Shown piece by piece: positions 7,068 to 21,179 of a stretch of DNA of 36,725 nt (its first letter is position 1; every line of letters begins with the position of its first letter). The notes beneath the pieces are model-generated. The model was not told the origin of the DNA and ran no database searches. It was given only the letters and a program-made list of their open reading frames with translations. Made by a program: the position numbers and the translations under genes. This DNA is from Holophagaceae bacterium (GTDB taxonomy: Bacteria; Acidobacteriota; Holophagae; Holophagales; Holophagaceae): assembly GCA_025361955.1 (NCBI GenBank), contig JANYIU010000253.1, positions 1 through 36,725 on the forward strand, read 5' to 3'.

Positions 7068-7799
7068 TCAGGCCTTCTCCCGCAGGCCCAGACGCTCCTT
7101 CAATCCCGGGGCGGCCCCTCGGCTCACTTCCAGGGTGACGTTCCCCTGGAGACGGACGATGAGACGACCGAACTCACCGACCTTGATGCCGACCACGGCC
7201 TCCGGTCGGATCAACAGGTGCCGGTGCCCCCTGGCCAGGGAGGGAAAGGCGGCTTCCACTTCCGTCAGTGACTTCCAGGTGGTCCGGAAGCGTTCCCCGT
7301 TGACGAAGGACCAGACGGCGTCGTCCTCGAAGACGAAGTGGCTCGTCCGGCTCAGGTCCAGGAGCACCAGCCCATCCCCGGCCCGCACGGGATAGCGCTG
7401 CGGAGAGGCGCCCTTGGCGGTCGGGGCGGAACCTCGCTCGAGGCGCTCCCGGACCCTCTGGAGGCTCACTGCCAACCGTTCGGCAGTGGCCGGCTTCAAT
7501 AGGTAGTCCAAGGCAGCGGTTTCAAAGGCCTTGACTGCATGTTCCGCGTACGCCGTCACGAACACCACCGGCAAGTGCTTCGGAAGGTCCAAGGCCACCT
7601 CCAACCCCGAAGCGCCTGGCATCTCGATATCGAGGAAGAGGGCATCGGTCTGACCGCCCGCCTCGAGCCATTCCAGGACCGCCGGCCCGTCCGGCAGTTC
7701 CGCCACCACCTCGCAGCCAGCTTCACGCAGCAGGCGCGACAACCGCTTGCGGTTGAAGGGCTCGTCCTCGGCCACGACAATCTTGAGGGGCTCAGACAT
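7068..7799 (-). CDS. LytTR-family response regulator
   Basis: This is the cytoplasmic DNA-binding partner of the adjacent LytS-type kinase. From ATG 7799 it has 243 residues. The receiver domain has the acidic pair in VVAEDEPFNR, the phosphoacceptor Asp57 in ALFLDIEMPG, a Thr in VFVTAYAEHAVKAFE and the Lys in YLLKPATAERL. The C-terminal half (about 140-240) is LytTR-like: DGLVLLDLSRTSHFVFEDDAV, FRTTWKSLTEVEAAF, and HRHLLIRPEAVVGIKVGEFGRLIVRL. Its start overlaps the kinase stop by 8 bases (ATGTCTGA), so translation is coupled. LytTR regulators bind direct repeats near their targets; the likely target is the promoter of its own operon, upstream of the Spy-like gene. Confidence 0.9.
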   Translation of the reverse strand: MSEPLKIVVAEDEPFNRKRLSRLLREAGCEVVAELPDGPAVLEWLEAGGQTDALFLDIEMPGASGLEVALDLPKHLPVVFVTAYAEHAVKAFETAALDYLLKPATAERLAVSLQRVRERLERGSAPTAKGASPQRYPVRAGDGLVLLDLSRTSHFVFEDDAVWSFVNGERFRTTWKSLTEVEAAFPSLARGHRHLLIRPEAVVGIKVGEFGRLIVRLQGNVTLEVSRGAAPGLKERLGLREKA

Positions 7800-8895
7800 G
7801 ACCACCCTCGACCGGCTTGAACCGGAGTTCAGCCAAGGTTCGCCCATCCACAGCGCGGATCTCCAGCTGCCCAGGCGCACGGTGCATCAGGGCCAGTCGC
7901 TGCCGGAGATTGGACAACCCCATCCCCTCGGGACTGCCCACCCTGAAGGGCAGACCTGTATTGGCGACCCAAATCCTTACGGCGTCCGGAGTTCCCGCAA
8001 GACCGATCTCCATATCACCGCCCACACGACTGGGGGCGATGCCATGCTTGATGGCGTTCTCCACCAGGGGCTGCAGGAGCAGAGGCGGCGCAAGGAGTTG
8101 CTCCAGCGAGGCATCCCACACCCAGCTCACCCGCAGGCGATCCCCGAGGCGGAATTGTTCCAAGGCCAGCAGTCCCTCCACCAGACTGCGTTCCTGGGCC
8201 AGCGACGCAGCTGTTCTCCCGGCATGATCCAGCAGGCGGCGCAGCATCTCTGCCAGTTTCACGAGGGCGGTCTCCGTGGAGGCGGAATCCTCCCGGGCCA
8301 ATTCCGCGAGACCGCTGATGGCATTGAAGAGGACATGGGGATTCATCTGCGCCTGGAGGGCTCGCGTCTGGGCTTCCCGGGCGTGCAACTCGGCCTCATC
8401 GGCGCGGATCCGCTCCCGGTCGTGGTCCGCCAGGATCCGTCCCAAGAGCACCCCGAAGACGACTGTGGCCAGCCCCAGGATGAGGAGCCGCAACTGCCAG
8501 GGTGGCAGCAGGACCGGGCTGTGCATGGGCGCACCCATCCTCATGCCGCGGCCCATCATCATACCGTCCATCATCATGTCGTGGTCGGGCGGCCAGGGAA
8601 GCAGGTAAAGCACCGCCCAGACCACCAGGAGGTTGCCGACCGTCGCCTGAAGCAAACCCCTCAAAAAAGGCGCCATCGGACACTCGTCCCGCGTCCACTG
8701 CCAGGGGAGCGGCGCCAGGATCAGGAGCACAGTCCCCAGCAGGAAGGGAAGCACCAGCCCGTCTGCAGTCCATCCGCCGGGCCCGCTCCCCCAGCGCAGA
8801 AGGTTCCAGACACCACCAAACAGGAACGCGGCGCCCCAAGTGCCGGGGCGCCGGATCCGTTCCTGCGCGTGCGCGAAGGCGGCGGGAAATAGCAT
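7792..8895 (-). CDS. LytS-type sensor histidine kinase with a Met-rich external loop
   Basis: This 367-residue membrane kinase has about four membrane helices (roughly 21-34, 47-62, 80-100, 131-152). A His_kinase domain of the LytS/YehU type follows, with MNPHVLFNAI (His187), the N-box PLVENAIKHG and the G-box GMGLSNLRQRL. Between helices 3 and 4, residues about 104-125 hold nine methionines and two histidines (DHDMMMDGMMMGRGMRMG...). With the N-terminus inside, this loop faces the periplasm. Met clusters of this kind bind Cu(I)/Ag(I) in known copper proteins, so I infer metal sensing; the sequence does not prove it. The kinase lies 37 bases after the Spy-like gene and overlaps its regulator. 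The ribosome binding site is weak. Confidence 0.88.
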   Translation of the reverse strand: MLFPAAFAHAQERIRRPGTWGAAFLFGGVWNLLRWGSGPGGWTADGLVLPFLLGTVLLILAPLPWQWTRDECPMAPFLRGLLQATVGNLLVVWAVLYLLPWPPDHDMMMDGMMMGRGMRMGAPMHSPVLLPPWQLRLLILGLATVVFGVLLGRILADHDRERIRADEAELHAREAQTRALQAQMNPHVLFNAISGLAELAREDSASTETALVKLAEMLRRLLDHAGRTAASLAQERSLVEGLLALEQFRLGDRLRVSWVWDASLEQLLAPPLLLQPLVENAIKHGIAPSRVGGDMEIGLAGTPDAVRIWVANTGLPFRVGSPEGMGLSNLRQRLALMHRAPGQLEIRAVDGRTLAELRFKPVEGGHV

Positions 8896-8932
8896 GGCGC
8901 AAGTCTACTTTACAAAGGGCTGCTCACTGGGA

Positions 8933-9427
8933 TCAGAAACATCCACCGGCGCCGCCATGGCCCATACCCATGCCTTGGCCCATGCCCTGGCCAGGCCCAC
9001 CCTGAGCGCGCTGCTTGTCCAGAGTGGCTTTCTGGTCCGGGGTCAGGTAGGCTTCGAATTCCCGCATCATAGCCCGGCGTTCCAGCATGACCGCCGTCAT
9101 GGCGTTGGCGGCATTGGCATGCAGTTCCTTCACCTTGGCATCGCTCACGGCGGGATCCTGCATGGCCTTTCGCATCGCTTCCCGAGCCTCGTTCGCGACC
9201 TTCTGCTCGGCGTCCAGGGCAGCCTGGTGACGCTCCGTGAGGGTCTTGAGATTCGCCTGTTGGGCTTCGGTGAGGTTGAGGGCTTGGGTCATGGGTCCGC
9301 AGTTCGCGGCTTGGCCCTTCCTATGGCCACCACCCAGCATCGGGCCGAACCCCTGAGCAGCCAGCACGGTGGCGGTTAGAGCCAGGGCGAGACCCGCGCT
9401 CCAGCCAATGATCTTCGAGATGTTCAT
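8933..9427 (-). CDS. Spy/CpxP-like periplasmic LTXXQ-motif protein with Met/Gly/His-rich tail
   Basis: The start is ATG 9427 (164 aa) with AAGGAG upstream; the longer ORF has no support. A signal peptide (KIIGWSAGLALALTATVLAAQ) sends it to the periplasm. Two LTxxQ motifs (LNLTEAQQ near 51 and LTPDQKATL near 136) flank a long charged helix, the Spy/CpxP/CnrX-type fold, which acts as chaperone or sensor accessory under envelope or metal stress. Cysteines occur near residue 43 and in the last three residues, and the C-terminus GQGMGQGMGMGHGG is a potential soft-metal ligand. As first gene of an operon with a Met-rich kinase and its regulator, it may be the effector or accessory sensor. Confidence 0.82.
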   Translation of the reverse strand: MNISKIIGWSAGLALALTATVLAAQGFGPMLGGGHRKGQAANCGPMTQALNLTEAQQANLKTLTERHQAALDAEQKVANEAREAMRKAMQDPAVSDAKVKELHANAANAMTAVMLERRAMMREFEAYLTPDQKATLDKQRAQGGPGQGMGQGMGMGHGGAGGCF

Positions 9428-9469: not shown

Positions 9470-9622
9470 CAACCATGGAACCACTGGGACGGACGCCCGC
9501 TGTCGCCAAACCACGGAATGCAGGTGAACAGGGCCGAATGACAGATCCCACCCCCTGGACTGCAGCAGCTCGACGCGTCTAAGCTGGCAATGGGGGCCTA
9601 CCCCTAGCCTTGGATTGAACGC

Positions 9623-10477
9623 ATGTTTCCCATCCATTTGAATCTGGGTTTCAGGGTCTTCTACTACTACGAAGGCTTCTATTTCTTCGTAGCGATCCTG
9701 GTCGCCTCATTCGTCGCTTACCGGCGCCTGCAGCGGGCAGGTCTCGATGCCAACGTTTTCCTCGACAGCCTTCCTTGGATCCTCCTGGGTGCCCTCCTGG
9801 GTGCGAGAATCTCCCACTTCGCCTTCTGGGAGCTTGGCGAACTCCTGAAGGACCCGCTCACCTTCTTTCGTTTCTGGGAGGGAGGGCTGTCGATCACCGG
9901 CGGGTTGGCTGGGGGTGTCCTGGGGGCATGGTTCTGTTTCCGAAGGGGGAACTTCTGGCATATCTTCGCCGTTACCAGCCCAGCGGTGCTCCTGGGCCAG
10001 GCCATCGGCAGGGTGGGCTGCTTCTTGAACGGCGATGCCTGGGGCATTCCCACGAGTTTACCCTGGGGGATCTCTGAGCCCCGGTTTGGCACCCTGATTC
10101 CGAGCTTTGTGACGGATCATCAATTCCCCAGCGATGCCTGGAGCTGGAGCGTGGTCCAAGGCTTTACCGATCCATCGGCCATGAGCACCGCACCCCTTCA
10201 CCCCACGCAACTCTACGAGGCTTTCGGCGACCTGGTCCTGGCGGGGCTGGTGATCCTGCTGGTGCGGTCTCTTACGACCAGGAGGGGTCCCTGGCAGAGG
10301 GCCGGCTGGCTCCACATTGGCGGTTATTCCCTCCTGCGCTTCGGTCTGGAGTTCCTCCACGGAGACCGGGATATCCCGCTCTGGGCCGGGATGACGGCGC
10401 TGCAGATAAGTCTCCTGGCCGTTGTCGCGTTAAGCGCGATGCTATACCTTCACGCTGCCCCAGAACCTGCGCGTTGA
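9623..10477 (+). CDS. Lgt-like (prolipoprotein diacylglyceryl transferase family) membrane protein
   Basis: This 284-residue multi-helix protein has Lgt family landmarks: an N-terminal YEGFYFFVAIL helix, GARISHFAFW, the signature GRVGCFLNGDAWG (Arg130), HPTQLYEAF and the C-terminal RFGLEFLHGD. Lgt attaches diacylglycerol to the lipobox cysteine of prolipoproteins. Two positions differ from the E. coli enzyme: the GG-x-x-F-H-GG histidine is Thr here (GGLSITGG), and the Asn after GRIG is Cys. The Cys is common in family members; loss of the His is rarer. It may therefore be an accessory paralogue, with the housekeeping lgt elsewhere. It precedes two polyferredoxin genes on the same strand, 148 bases away. 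Its ribosome binding site is poor. Confidence 0.82.
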   Translation: MFPIHLNLGFRVFYYYEGFYFFVAILVASFVAYRRLQRAGLDANVFLDSLPWILLGALLGARISHFAFWELGELLKDPLTFFRFWEGGLSITGGLAGGVLGAWFCFRRGNFWHIFAVTSPAVLLGQAIGRVGCFLNGDAWGIPTSLPWGISEPRFGTLIPSFVTDHQFPSDAWSWSVVQGFTDPSAMSTAPLHPTQLYEAFGDLVLAGLVILLVRSLTTRRGPWQRAGWLHIGGYSLLRFGLEFLHGDRDIPLWAGMTALQISLLAVVALSAMLYLHAAPEPAR

Positions 10478-10625
10478 GGGTACTAACAAAGTCCGTGGCT
10501 AAACGCGATCCCCTGCGATCCAGGGCATCCGGTTTGCGATTCAGCCCCTTGTTCCTGCATCCCGTTGAAGGAAGTGCACACGGCGAATGTTCAGTGGTCC
10601 CATGACTTCATAACGGGAGCTGAAT

Positions 10626-10802
10626 ATGGCCATAGAAAAGAATGACGCGAAGACGACGTCCACGGCAAAAAGCGTCCGGCTGACCATTCTCATGATGGTC
10701 CTGGCGATCTCGACCGGTGTGGGCCTCCTGCACCAGTTCTCGGATTTGAAGCCTGTCAGCGTGGACGCACTCTGTCCCTTCGGTGGCATCGAATCTTTCT
10801 AG
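10626..10802 (+). pseudogene. N-terminal 58 codons of a NapH/NosR-like polyferredoxin, ending in an in-frame TAG
   Basis: From ATG 10626, with GGGAG at good spacing, the frame encodes a short charged start, one membrane helix (VRLTILMMVLAISTGVGLL) and VDALCPFGGIESF, then TAG at 10800-10802. The next codons continue the same family in the same frame (SVLASGTLLAKIGW). Related proteins normally have an aromatic residue at this position (CPFGGIExLYSxL, from memory), so a Tyr TAC/TAT to TAG change would explain it. The good ribosome binding site belongs to this fragment, which argues that the original gene was 10626-11786. It is a true nonsense mutation, a sequencing error or a read-through stop. 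Confidence 0.75.
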
Positions 10803-10805
10803 AGC

Positions 10806-11786
10806 GTGCTCGCCTCTGGCACTCTGCTGGCCAAGATCGGCTGGTCCAGTTTCATCCTACTGCTAGCTACCCTGGTAGCCGCCATACTCTTCCGACGGAG
10901 CTTCTGCGGCAACGTATGCCCCTTGGTTACCCTGCAGGAACTGTTCGCCCGGGCCGGCAAGAAGGTGCTTGGGAAGCGCTCCACCGTCCCCGCAGCCGCA
11001 GACTACTGGGCCAGATACCTCAAATATGTGGTGCTCGCCGTCTTCACTCTTCTTTCCGCGGCGCTCGGCACTCTCGTGATCCGTCCCTACGATCCCTGGG
11101 TCACCTATCACCACCTGTTCTCGCCGGAACTGCTCGATGGGTTCCTCATCGGCCTCACTGTGCTGCTCCTTACCGTGGTCGGCTCCTTTTTCTATGACCG
11201 CGTCTTCTGCAAGTATCTGTGCCCCATGGGTGCCGCCCTCACCCCCTTCGCAAAGCTCGGGCTCTTCAAGATCAAGCGCAACGCCCACACCTGCATCAAC
11301 TGCAGCCTCTGCGACAAGGCCTGCCCCGTGAACCTGCCGGTATCGCGCCTGGAGAAGATCACGGATCCCGAATGCCTGGACTGCGATCAGTGCGTGAACG
11401 CCTGCCCCGTGAAGAACACTCTCGTCATCGAGGGCCCGGGCGGCAAGCGCATCGGCTCGACCTTCCGGGTGGTGGCGACCTTCGCGATCTTCCTGCTGGT
11501 CGTCGGCAGCACCTCCCTATCGGGTGTGTTCGGCTGGACCATGCCGCCCCTGACCGGCGGCACCAGCGAGGGTGGAAAACCCGCCTTCACCTTCGAAGCC
11601 ATCAAGGGCACAGACACCTGGCTGGCGGTGAGCGAGGCTTCGGGGATTCCCAAGGAAGCCTTCGTGGCGCGCTTCCAGCTCACCGAGGCCGACCTGGCCC
11701 AGCCGATCAAGACGAAGGCCCACGCCCCGGGCTCCACCTTCGACACCGAAGCGGTCCGCGAGTGGGTCAAGGAAAAGCTGCACTAG
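10806..11786 (+). CDS. Membrane polyferredoxin, NapH/NosR-like, main part after the TAG
   Basis: The remaining 326 codons are intact. Two membrane CxxxCP motifs (FCGNVCP at 34-38, FCKYLCP at 135-139) are each tied to helices. Two cytoplasmic-type [4Fe-4S] sites follow: C163-x2-C-x2-C-x3-CP and C190-x2-C-x2-C-x3-CP. A last helix (VVATFAIFLLVVGSTSLSG) leads to a soluble C-terminal domain (TWLAVSEASGIPKEAFVARF...). Such proteins pass electrons between quinol and periplasmic or membrane redox partners. If translated alone it would need GTG 10806, which has no ribosome binding site, so expression probably depends on read-through or is lost. The following polyferredoxin starts 11 bases later with a perfect Shine-Dalgarno. 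The partner enzyme is not in the window. Confidence 0.8.
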   Translation: MLASGTLLAKIGWSSFILLLATLVAAILFRRSFCGNVCPLVTLQELFARAGKKVLGKRSTVPAAADYWARYLKYVVLAVFTLLSAALGTLVIRPYDPWVTYHHLFSPELLDGFLIGLTVLLLTVVGSFFYDRVFCKYLCPMGAALTPFAKLGLFKIKRNAHTCINCSLCDKACPVNLPVSRLEKITDPECLDCDQCVNACPVKNTLVIEGPGGKRIGSTFRVVATFAIFLLVVGSTSLSGVFGWTMPPLTGGTSEGGKPAFTFEAIKGTDTWLAVSEASGIPKEAFVARFQLTEADLAQPIKTKAHAPGSTFDTEAVREWVKEKLH

Positions 11787-11796
11787 GAGGTGCCCC

Positions 11797-12930
11797 GTGA
11801 AAAAAGTCTGGTCGACCTTCATCACCCTCGTGATCCTGGTGGTTGCATCGTCCTGGTTCGTGTCGGGCCTCTGGAGCAGAAAAGAGGAGAAGCTCGTCCT
11901 TCCGCAGCAGCTGGTCTTCACCCCCGGGGAGTCGCTCGACACCTTCATGGCGGGCAACATGATTCCCGATGCGGTCATGGCGAAGGTCCTGGGCAAGACC
12001 GCCGTTGCGGACAAAGGGGTGCCGCTGGCCAGCCTCTTGGCGAACCCCCCGCTTTCCAGCGCAGAGCTGCAGACGAAGCTGCTGAAGGCGGCCGCGCTGG
12101 CCTCAGAGGATGCCGGGAAGGACTGGCAGAAGATCCTCCCCAAGTTCGCCCTGTGGGCCATCTTCTTGTTCGTCTCCTTCAGGGCGCTCACGCAGGGCCG
12201 GTTCAACCGCAAGACCCGGAAGGGGTACTACCTGGGCGCCGTGGTGCTCTTTGGGGTGGCCTTCGGCTCCGATCCCAGCCCCATGGGCACGGTGAAGGAC
12301 GCCATCGTCCTGCTCGCCAGGGAAGGCGTCGTCTTCCCACCGCGCCTCATCGCCCTCACGGTATTCCTCCTGACCGTGGTGCTCGCCAACAAGGCCATCT
12401 GTGCCTGGGGCTGTCAGTTAGGCGTACTGCAGGATCTGGTCTTCCGGCTGAACCGGAACCAGGCTGACACCAAGGGAATCCTCAAGCAGTACAAGGTGCC
12501 CTTCGTCATCTCCAATGGTGTGAGAGTGGTCTTCTTCCTCGCGTTCACGGCCGTTGCCATCGTCGTTGGCATGGACTTCATCGAATCCGTGGATCCCTTC
12601 AAGACCTTCAACCCCACCCATCTCGGCCTCACTGGCGCCATCGCCGCGGGCAGCCTGCTCGTGGCCTCCCTGTTCATCTACCGGCCCTGGTGTCACTTCT
12701 TCTGCCCCTTCGGACTGGTCAGTTGGTTGCTGGAGCGCTTCAGCCTCAACAAGATCCGGGTGGACGAAAATGTGTGCACCCTATGCGGTTCCTGTGAGCG
12801 GGCCTGCCCTTCGGACGTCATGGGCGCCATCCTGCATAAGAAGAAGGTGATCCCCGACTGTTTCTCCTGTGGCACTTGCACAGAGGTCTGCCCCACGAAG
12901 GCCATTTCCTTCGGACGAAAGCAGCCTTGA
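11797..12930 (+). CDS. Second membrane polyferredoxin (4Fe-4S binding protein)
   Basis: GTG 11797 is preceded by AGGAGGTG at ideal spacing, overlapping the end of the upstream gene's stop region. The 377-residue protein has an N-terminal helix, a soluble segment (about 40-110), then several helices carrying CAWGCQLGVLQDL (202-206) and WCHFFCPFGLVSWLLE (299-303). Two C-terminal [4Fe-4S] motifs follow: C327-x2-C-x2-C-x3-CP and C355-x2-C-x2-C-x3-CP. The soluble segment (DTFMAGNMIPDAVMAKVLG) resembles the C-terminal domain of the upstream polyferredoxin, as if the pair share a docking module. It is a likely electron carrier through the membrane. It ends 25 bases from the convergent GGGtGRT gene. 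Confidence 0.85.
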   Translation: MKKVWSTFITLVILVVASSWFVSGLWSRKEEKLVLPQQLVFTPGESLDTFMAGNMIPDAVMAKVLGKTAVADKGVPLASLLANPPLSSAELQTKLLKAAALASEDAGKDWQKILPKFALWAIFLFVSFRALTQGRFNRKTRKGYYLGAVVLFGVAFGSDPSPMGTVKDAIVLLAREGVVFPPRLIALTVFLLTVVLANKAICAWGCQLGVLQDLVFRLNRNQADTKGILKQYKVPFVISNGVRVVFFLAFTAVAIVVGMDFIESVDPFKTFNPTHLGLTGAIAAGSLLVASLFIYRPWCHFFCPFGLVSWLLERFSLNKIRVDENVCTLCGSCERACPSDVMGAILHKKKVIPDCFSCGTCTEVCPTKAISFGRKQP

Positions 12931-19969: not shown

Positions 19970-20153
19970 CTAGCGGAATGGTTGGAGAGGATTCCGGGGT
20001 GAATCGTACGAATCGGTGAGGGGCCTGGAGGGTTCCATGGCTCCCCCAGGGGATTCAAGCAAGTGTTTCCCCTGGCAGGATGTAGCATTCACTCAGGTTC
20101 AACCTTCACGTCAACCGGGGACTGATTCATTACGCGGGAGTGGAAATCAAGTC

Positions 20154-21179
20154 ATGAACAAGGATAGGAAGGTCCAGATCCGCAACAGCATGGCCGAGTT
20201 CCTGGTCTTCACCACCCAGACGGGCGAGGGTGGCATTGAAGTCCGCATCGAAGACGAAACCGTCTGGTTGACCCAGAAGCTCATTGCCACGTTGTTCGAC
20301 GTGGATATCCGAACCATCAGCGAGCATCTCAAGAACATCTTTGCCAGCGGTGAGCTGAAGGAGGATTCAGCTCTCCGGAATTTCCGGAATACTGCCGCCG
20401 ATGGCAAGCAGTACCTGACCAACTTCTATAATCTCGACGCCATCATCTCCGTGGGTTACCGGGTGAACTCCGTGCGGGCAACCCAGTTCCGACAGTGGGC
20501 CACGAGCATCCTGCGGGATTTCGCCATTCGCGGGTATGTGCTGGACAAGGAACGTTTGAAGAACGGTGCGCTCTTCACGAAAGACTACTTCAATGACCTC
20601 CTGGAGGAAATCCGGGAGATCCGCGCCAGCGAACGCCGGTTCTACCAGAAGATCACCGATATCTATGCCACGGCCATGGACTACCAGGCCGATGCCGAGC
20701 TCACGAAAGCCTTCTTTGCCACCGTACAGAACAAACTCCACTTCGCTATCCATGGCCACACCGCCGCCGAGTTGATCCGCGAGCGGGCGGAAAGCGAAAA
20801 GCCGCATATGGGGCTCAGCACTTGGAAGAACGCGCCCGATGGCAAGATCCGCAAATCCGATGTCTCCGTGGCCAAAAACTACCTTACCGAAAAGGAAATG
20901 AAGGCCCTGGACCGCATCGTCACCATGTACCTGGACTACGCAGAAGACCAGGCCGAGCGCCGCATCCCCATGACCATGGAGGATTGGGCCAAGAAGCTGA
21001 ATGCTTTCCTGCACTTCAACGAGCGCGACATCCTGGATCATTCCGGCAAAGTGGCCGCCGAGATCGCCAAGGCGTTCGCTGAAAGCGAGTTCGAGAGGTA
21101 CCGCATCGTGCAGGACCGGCTTTTCGAATCCGACTTCGACCGCATCCTGAAACAGTTGTCGGGCGAGAAGAAAGCCTAG
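20154..21179 (+). CDS. RhuM-family protein
   Basis: The 341-residue protein is full length for the family. The N-terminal module reads VRIEDETVWLTQKLIATLFDVDIRTISEHLKNIF, a DNA-binding-like region resembling KilA-N/Bro types. Then come NFYNLDAIISVGYRVNSVRATQFRQWA and a helical C-terminal half (FYQKITDIYATAMDY...TVQNKLHFAIHGHTAAELI). RhuM was named from a Salmonella pathogenicity island and homologues travel on mobile islands; the molecular role is not established, though links to toxin or defence systems have been suggested. I start at ATG 20154; ATG 20190 is an alternative. It lies alone on the plus strand between two minus-strand pseudogenes, and its stop touches the break point of the PAS gene, so it probably arrived by insertion. 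Confidence 0.88.
   Translation: MNKDRKVQIRNSMAEFLVFTTQTGEGGIEVRIEDETVWLTQKLIATLFDVDIRTISEHLKNIFASGELKEDSALRNFRNTAADGKQYLTNFYNLDAIISVGYRVNSVRATQFRQWATSILRDFAIRGYVLDKERLKNGALFTKDYFNDLLEEIREIRASERRFYQKITDIYATAMDYQADAELTKAFFATVQNKLHFAIHGHTAAELIRERAESEKPHMGLSTWKNAPDGKIRKSDVSVAKNYLTEKEMKALDRIVTMYLDYAEDQAERRIPMTMEDWAKKLNAFLHFNERDILDHSGKVAAEIAKAFAESEFERYRIVQDRLFESDFDRILKQLSGEKKA

Follow-up and report, generated by a model that had tools for sequence, protein, structure and literature searches.

The window, a stretch of 36,725 nucleotides from a Holophagaceae genome, carries on its minus strand three open reading frames that encode a Spy-like periplasmic protein, a LytS-type sensor histidine kinase and a LytTR response regulator (Table 1). 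A sequence-only reading had proposed that they form a soft-metal sensing system; open reading frame checks and profile searches found all three genes where that reading placed them and in the families it named. The kinase matches PF06580 (His_kinase, 59.4 bits against a cut-off of 25.2), and the same search returned only a weak HATPase match besides, with neither HAMP nor HisKA. In the regulator, the receiver domain PF00072 (73.8 bits, cut-off 30.2) and the LytTR domain PF04397 (26.0 bits, cut-off 22.6) were both detected; its best NCBIfam model is PRK11697 BtsR (2.8e-34), but the match lies under the cut-off of that model. The kinase stop codon (7794-7792) and the regulator start codon both fall within ATGTCTGA, which bears out the overlap reported earlier and sets it at 8 nt.

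The Spy-like protein scores above the gathering thresholds of PF07813 (LTXXQ, 45 bits against 24.3) and PF13801 (Metal_resist, 36.6 bits against 29.2), and stays below the cut-offs of the NCBIfam Spy equivalog PRK10455 (28.2 bits against 174) and of the NCBIfam CpxP models. Its AlphaFold model has helices at residues 54-142 and two tails with pLDDT below 50. The top Foldseek matches are CpxP, Spy and CnrX (probability 1.00, TM (target) 0.67-0.73, E 0.02-0.1), and the predicted fold is the helical hairpin of CpxP, Spy, CnrX and ZraP. Its two cysteines, Cys43 and Cys163, lie near both ends of the protein, as described before. The Met/Gly/His tail is present and disordered (residues 144-164); the earlier quotation of it omitted the last five residues, AGGCF, and the full C-terminus reads GQGMGQGMGMGHGGAGGCF. 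Because a conserved site lies upstream of the spy-like gene and only 38 bp separate it from the kinase gene, we agree with the earlier placement of this gene at the head of the operon.

Table 1. Coordinates, strand and supporting evidence of the features discussed; positions refer to the window unless stated otherwise.
Feature	Position	Strand	Evidence or remark
LytTR response regulator (BtsR-like)	7068..7799 (ATG at 7799)	-	PF00072, PF04397
LytS-type sensor histidine kinase, 367 aa, four TM helices then DHp/ATPase	7792..8895	-	PF06580; AF2; family tree
TM3-TM4 periplasmic loop (predicted), residues ~100-131, with 9 Met and 2 His in H105-H125	8503..8598	-	sequence, hydropathy, AF2
Spy/CpxP-like periplasmic protein, 164 aa	8933..9427	-	PF07813, PF13801 above gathering; AF2; Foldseek
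Triple direct repeat, 21-bp period, CTGCAGTCC / CTGTCATTCG / CTGCATTCC, predicted regulator site	9512..9567	-	conserved; PWM
Second triple repeat, predicted second regulator site	10511..10566	+	leave-window-out PWM 19.2
NapH/MauN-like membrane 4Fe-4S protein, predicted second target	10626..11786	+
Second NapH/MauN-like membrane 4Fe-4S protein	11797..12930	+	frame intact
Secreted EF-hand protein gene, locus L165	~-493..-16 from kinase start		PF13202

We searched 77 genomes, taken as Holophagaceae by their named records and including Geothrix and UBA1801, fetched the loci and called neighbouring genes by a simple codon score. The Spy-kinase-regulator cassette is present in 39 of the 77, in which 40 distinct kinases of one clade are preceded, on the same strand and at 12-60 bp, by a Spy-like open reading frame. 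The clade had no member in 16 genomes from other families of the class, and in the named genome scan, loci L070-L140 showed no Spy beside their more distant LytS kinases. This retention of the cassette, together with a shared regulator site, supports the proposal that the three genes are one system. In a kinase tree built without the loop described below, the Spy-upstream kinases group with nine Spy-less kinases and one row truncated upstream (SH-aLRT 99). The sister group of the window kinase (support 100) consists of seven Spy-less kinases with Met-free loops of 22-24 aa; in five of these, a gene for a YaiO-like outer-membrane barrel precedes the kinase in place of Spy; the closest kinases (L002, L003, L004 and four more) are 49-57% identical to it. 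A second Spy-less pair is formed by L013 (loop of 25 aa) and L160 (24 aa). Details of the tree are unsure, L001 and several other members lying on long branches.

Two further arrangements were noted in the course of this comparison. The window's genome holds a second LytS/LytTR pair with a Spy-like open reading frame upstream (L188, G000:C135), whose kinase has a 24 aa loop without Met and belongs to a different clade by the tree. In the Spy-less, barrel-containing cassettes L153 and L156, the first gene encodes a small secreted protein (76 aa, RKQDGTGTGTP..., ~-1213..-982 from the kinase start) and has a weaker regulator site upstream.

The feature that first drew attention to the kinase is its TM3-TM4 loop. 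AlphaFold, run on a 21-row alignment, places helices at residues 17-36, 44-60, 77-98 and 132-202. Hydropathy profiles of six relatives put the loop between the final two membrane helices ahead of the kinase domain; it is therefore predicted to face the periplasm irrespective of the weak first helix. The earlier interpretation depended on this placement, and both the profiles and the modelled helices agree with it. The segment H105-H125 holds nine Met and two His in 21 residues (previously given as about 22). At the Met frequency of 1.8% found in the rest of such kinases, at least nine Met in a 35-aa loop has p ~1e-8, before allowing for ~330 windows. The loop (residues 99-131) is disordered in the model, with pLDDT below 50 at residues 104-110 and 112-122.

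Conservation of these methionines among close orthologues had been named beforehand as a test of the soft-metal proposal, and it largely did not hold: the nearest kinases have no loop Met, and Spy-linked loops have from 0 to 10 (median 4, n = 40). What stays constant in the Spy-linked loops is length and low complexity. All 40 Spy-linked loops are low-complexity segments of 33-67 aa, and all nine full-length Spy-less members of the clade have loops of 22-25 aa. This co-occurrence of long loop and Spy reflects three to four independent changes, too few pairs for a sign test to reach significance. Mean Met shares are 10.5% in the loops, 10.7% in the Spy C-tails and 1.8% in the rest of the kinase. 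Phylogenetic contrasts gave a correlation between loop and tail Met of r 0.45 (p 0.03 without correction for the seven residue classes) and a borderline one for Arg (p 0.04); Pro, His, Gly, acidic residues and Cys showed no significant correlation. The borders of Spy segments and loops were defined by a pattern that mis-split a few Spy N-terminal segments, and the contrasts used C-tails only.

Some individual loci show a similar match between the loop and a neighbouring product. Pro-rich loops pair with Pro-rich Spy ends in L015, L016, L024 and L029, and a Gly/Arg-rich loop pairs with an outer-membrane barrel bearing a Gly/Arg-rich insert. In L165, which belongs to a sister clade, a LytS kinase with a 68 aa Pro/Asp/Glu/Arg-rich loop has a secreted EF-hand protein (PF13202) encoded directly upstream. 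In L253 (genome G017, positions 1-427), the kinase has a long His/Asp-rich loop, GKERFDTSGAHGHGHDDHAAAHGHDDHG, at a contig end and no adjacent Spy; the kinase is split between the ends of two unjoined contigs, and one strong site for the regulator (score 34.9) is common to the kinase gene and a divergent DUF4405 gene. Such mirroring of loop and partner chemistry is suggestive only. It could mean that the loop is an exchangeable sensing cassette, whose chemistry co-evolves with that of the secreted protein it controls and which would imitate that product's disordered segment or compete with it for the same ligand. The pairs would then be Met with Met-tailed Spy, Gly/Arg with the barrel, Pro with Pro-tailed Spy, His/Asp with DUF4405 and Asp/Glu/Pro with the EF-hand protein. 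We regard this reading as distinctly improbable.

Upstream of Spy, 37 cassettes share a triple direct repeat with a 21-bp period, whose middle box lies at about -110 and has the consensus CTGYCATTCG; in the window, the central box lies 117 bp before the Spy start. In most genomes, a site model built from sequence only has a single strong match, which lies at the Spy operon, and the match in the window has an E of 2.9e-6 in the 3.06-Mb genome. With a position weight matrix trained without the window, the two best window sites score 31.3 (9512-9567) and 19.2 (10511-10566), against a per-window maximum in 60 first-order shuffles that averages 1.5 +/- 3.1 and reaches 10.4 at most. Autoregulated LytTR operons carry direct repeats separated by 11-13 bp (PMC6193735), and the 21-bp period matches this two-turn geometry. 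Since most genomes have no other strong site than the conserved repeat before Spy, autoregulation of the operon is probable, and the predicted regulon is small for the same reason. In the Spy-less cassettes L003, L148, L153 and L156, the site precedes the first gene.

The second repeat of the window lies between lgt (which ends at 10477) and a pair of NapH/MauN-like genes, with its central box 92 bp ahead of the ATG at 10626. Taken alone, it has an E of only 0.5 across the genome, and its case therefore rests on its position and on the relatives. There, sites precede DUF4405 genes in L244, L253, L160, L262, L265, L266 and L267, and in most cases the locus has no better site; in L262 and L266 the site starts 114-115 bp before the DUF4405 start codon. 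The DUF4405 loci L263 and L264 have weak sites, and L261 is a DUF4405 locus without one. DUF4405 proteins bind heme b and structurally resemble MsrQ (PMC11334425). We dismissed the secondary sites of L242, L243, L245, L246, L248, L249, L259 and L260 (E 0.001-0.1) as chance matches, mostly in coding sequence or poor without gaps. The two Cu-type P-ATPase loci of the window's genome showed no regulator site, the inspected second sites no metal-efflux gene, and the annotated genes of the cassette and of 10626-12930 no MsrP.

Several observations accompany these loci. The first NapH/MauN-like gene has an in-frame TAG (10800-10802, codon 59) in a conserved-looking stretch, owing to a sequencing error or a broken gene. 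The second has no homologue at E<=1e-30 in the 76 other family genomes. In L262-L266, the kinase-linked DUF4405 gene is followed by one for a ferritin-like protein (DUF2202-type, by eye), and a RhuM-like protein, likewise recognized by eye, is encoded at 20016-21179 of the window.

We give an even chance to the reading that the operon is an autoregulated envelope-stress two-component system, in which the loop works together with Spy and which induces the chaperone and inner-membrane electron-transfer proteins. What the members have in common suggests an envelope-stress module: along with the autoregulated LytS/LytTR pair, they combine an envelope protein, such as a periplasmic chaperone, with an electron-transfer protein of the inner membrane. 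A joint role of loop and Spy is preferred because long loop and Spy come and go together, although the long His/Asp-rich loop of G017, with no adjacent Spy, counts against it. The kinase would read periplasmic conditions through its long disordered loop and phosphorylate the regulator, which would bind the three 21-bp-spaced repeats and raise expression of its own operon, above all of Spy in first position. It would also raise the NapH-type pair in the window's genome and DUF4405 cytochromes in relatives. Besides being the product, Spy would most likely be the loop's partner, a contact that we propose by analogy with CpxP and ZraP: free Spy would damp the kinase, and clients or ligands occupying Spy or the loop would release it. 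The Met-rich loop and tail may tune the signal towards thioether-reactive agents, either Cu(I)/Ag(I) or oxidants.

The original proposal, in which Cu(I) or Ag(I) bound by the Met/His loop activates the kinase and is sequestered by the Met-tailed Spy, could draw on the enrichment of the loop in Met and His beyond chance, on the Spy tail and its two cysteines, on the weak covariation of loop and tail Met and on the metal sensor CnrX among the top structural matches of Spy. The His/Asp-rich loop of a relative and the Asp/Glu/Pro-rich loop beside the EF-hand protein of the sister clade would also fit metal-specialised loops. However, the nearest kinases have no loop Met and some Spy-linked loops have none or one, the Cu P-ATPases have no regulator site, and the second target is a NapH-like polyferredoxin operon, with no metal-efflux gene at any inspected second site. 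The view that the system is specifically a soft-metal one is therefore not supported; we see Cu(I)/Ag(I) as a possible signal but prefer it neither to oxidants nor to protein-folding stress, and as a full account it seems unlikely to us.

It is also conceivable, but quite unlikely in our judgement, that loop Met are oxidised by HOCl, chloramines or peroxide, so that the kinase fires, Met-rich Spy doubles as chaperone and sink, and a periplasmic repair reaction is supplied by the membrane electron-transfer proteins. There is precedent for such an input in HprS, which senses HOCl through two periplasmic-loop Met, and for such an output in Met-rich peptides encoded with MsrPQ-like proteins (both reviewed in PMC10151825). 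The second targets, a NapH pair or the MsrQ-like heme-b cytochrome DUF4405 (PMC11334425), would suit it as well. Loop Met is not conserved, however, the DUF4405-linked kinases are mostly those without it, and the cassette and second target operon showed no MsrP gene. A last alternative gives the loop no sensing role at all: it would be low-complexity sequence that expanded neutrally in a GC-rich genome, and the membrane helices would read the signal. The great variation of loop sequence and length among close relatives and the regulator site retained by Spy-less members with 22-25 aa loops are what one would expect from it, but neither the strict division between long Spy-linked and short Spy-less loops nor a Met share that GC pressure leaves unexplained is, and we consider it very unlikely.

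If the envelope-stress reading holds, it describes a new wiring in the family of the iron reducer Geothrix, with a LytS/LytTR pair that is dedicated to a Spy chaperone, a defined site and a link to inner-membrane electron transfer. Through the site and the variable loops, the signal is open to direct testing; and as Met, His, Gly/Arg and Pro forms of the loop occur on a single kinase scaffold, the clade is a natural set of loop swaps for the study of disordered-loop sensing.

The sequence-only reading called this layout unfamiliar, and our literature search for a Met-rich LytS kinase or a LytTR regulator with Spy likewise found nothing relevant. The parts nevertheless have known counterparts. 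CpxP-CpxA/CpxR and ZraP-ZraS/ZraR also place a Spy-fold periplasmic protein, matching ours in fold, under two-component control of envelope or metal stress, whereas here a LytS-type kinase with four TM helices, and no HAMP or HisKA found, shares one operon with its LytTR regulator and Spy. CusRS and CopRS resemble the system in having Met and His as possible ligands in a periplasmic sensing region; CusS and CopS, however, have folded periplasmic domains, HAMP/HisKA and Cu-handling regulons, in contrast to a disordered loop, a LytS kinase and a predicted regulon in which no Cu gene was found. HprRS-MsrPQ and BcrS/BcrXQP combine input through periplasmic-loop Met with output of a Met-rich product and a membrane cytochrome (PMC10151825), but their kinase, regulator or sigma classes differ, and here NapH or DUF4405 takes the place of MsrQ, with no MsrP seen. 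BtsSR and other LytS-LytTR systems share the kinase and regulator types, direct repeats spaced by two helical turns and autoregulation (PMC6193735), the repeats being predicted sites in our case; the Holophagaceae system differs from them in having Spy as its first gene, a triple rather than a double repeat, and a long low-complexity TM3-TM4 loop.
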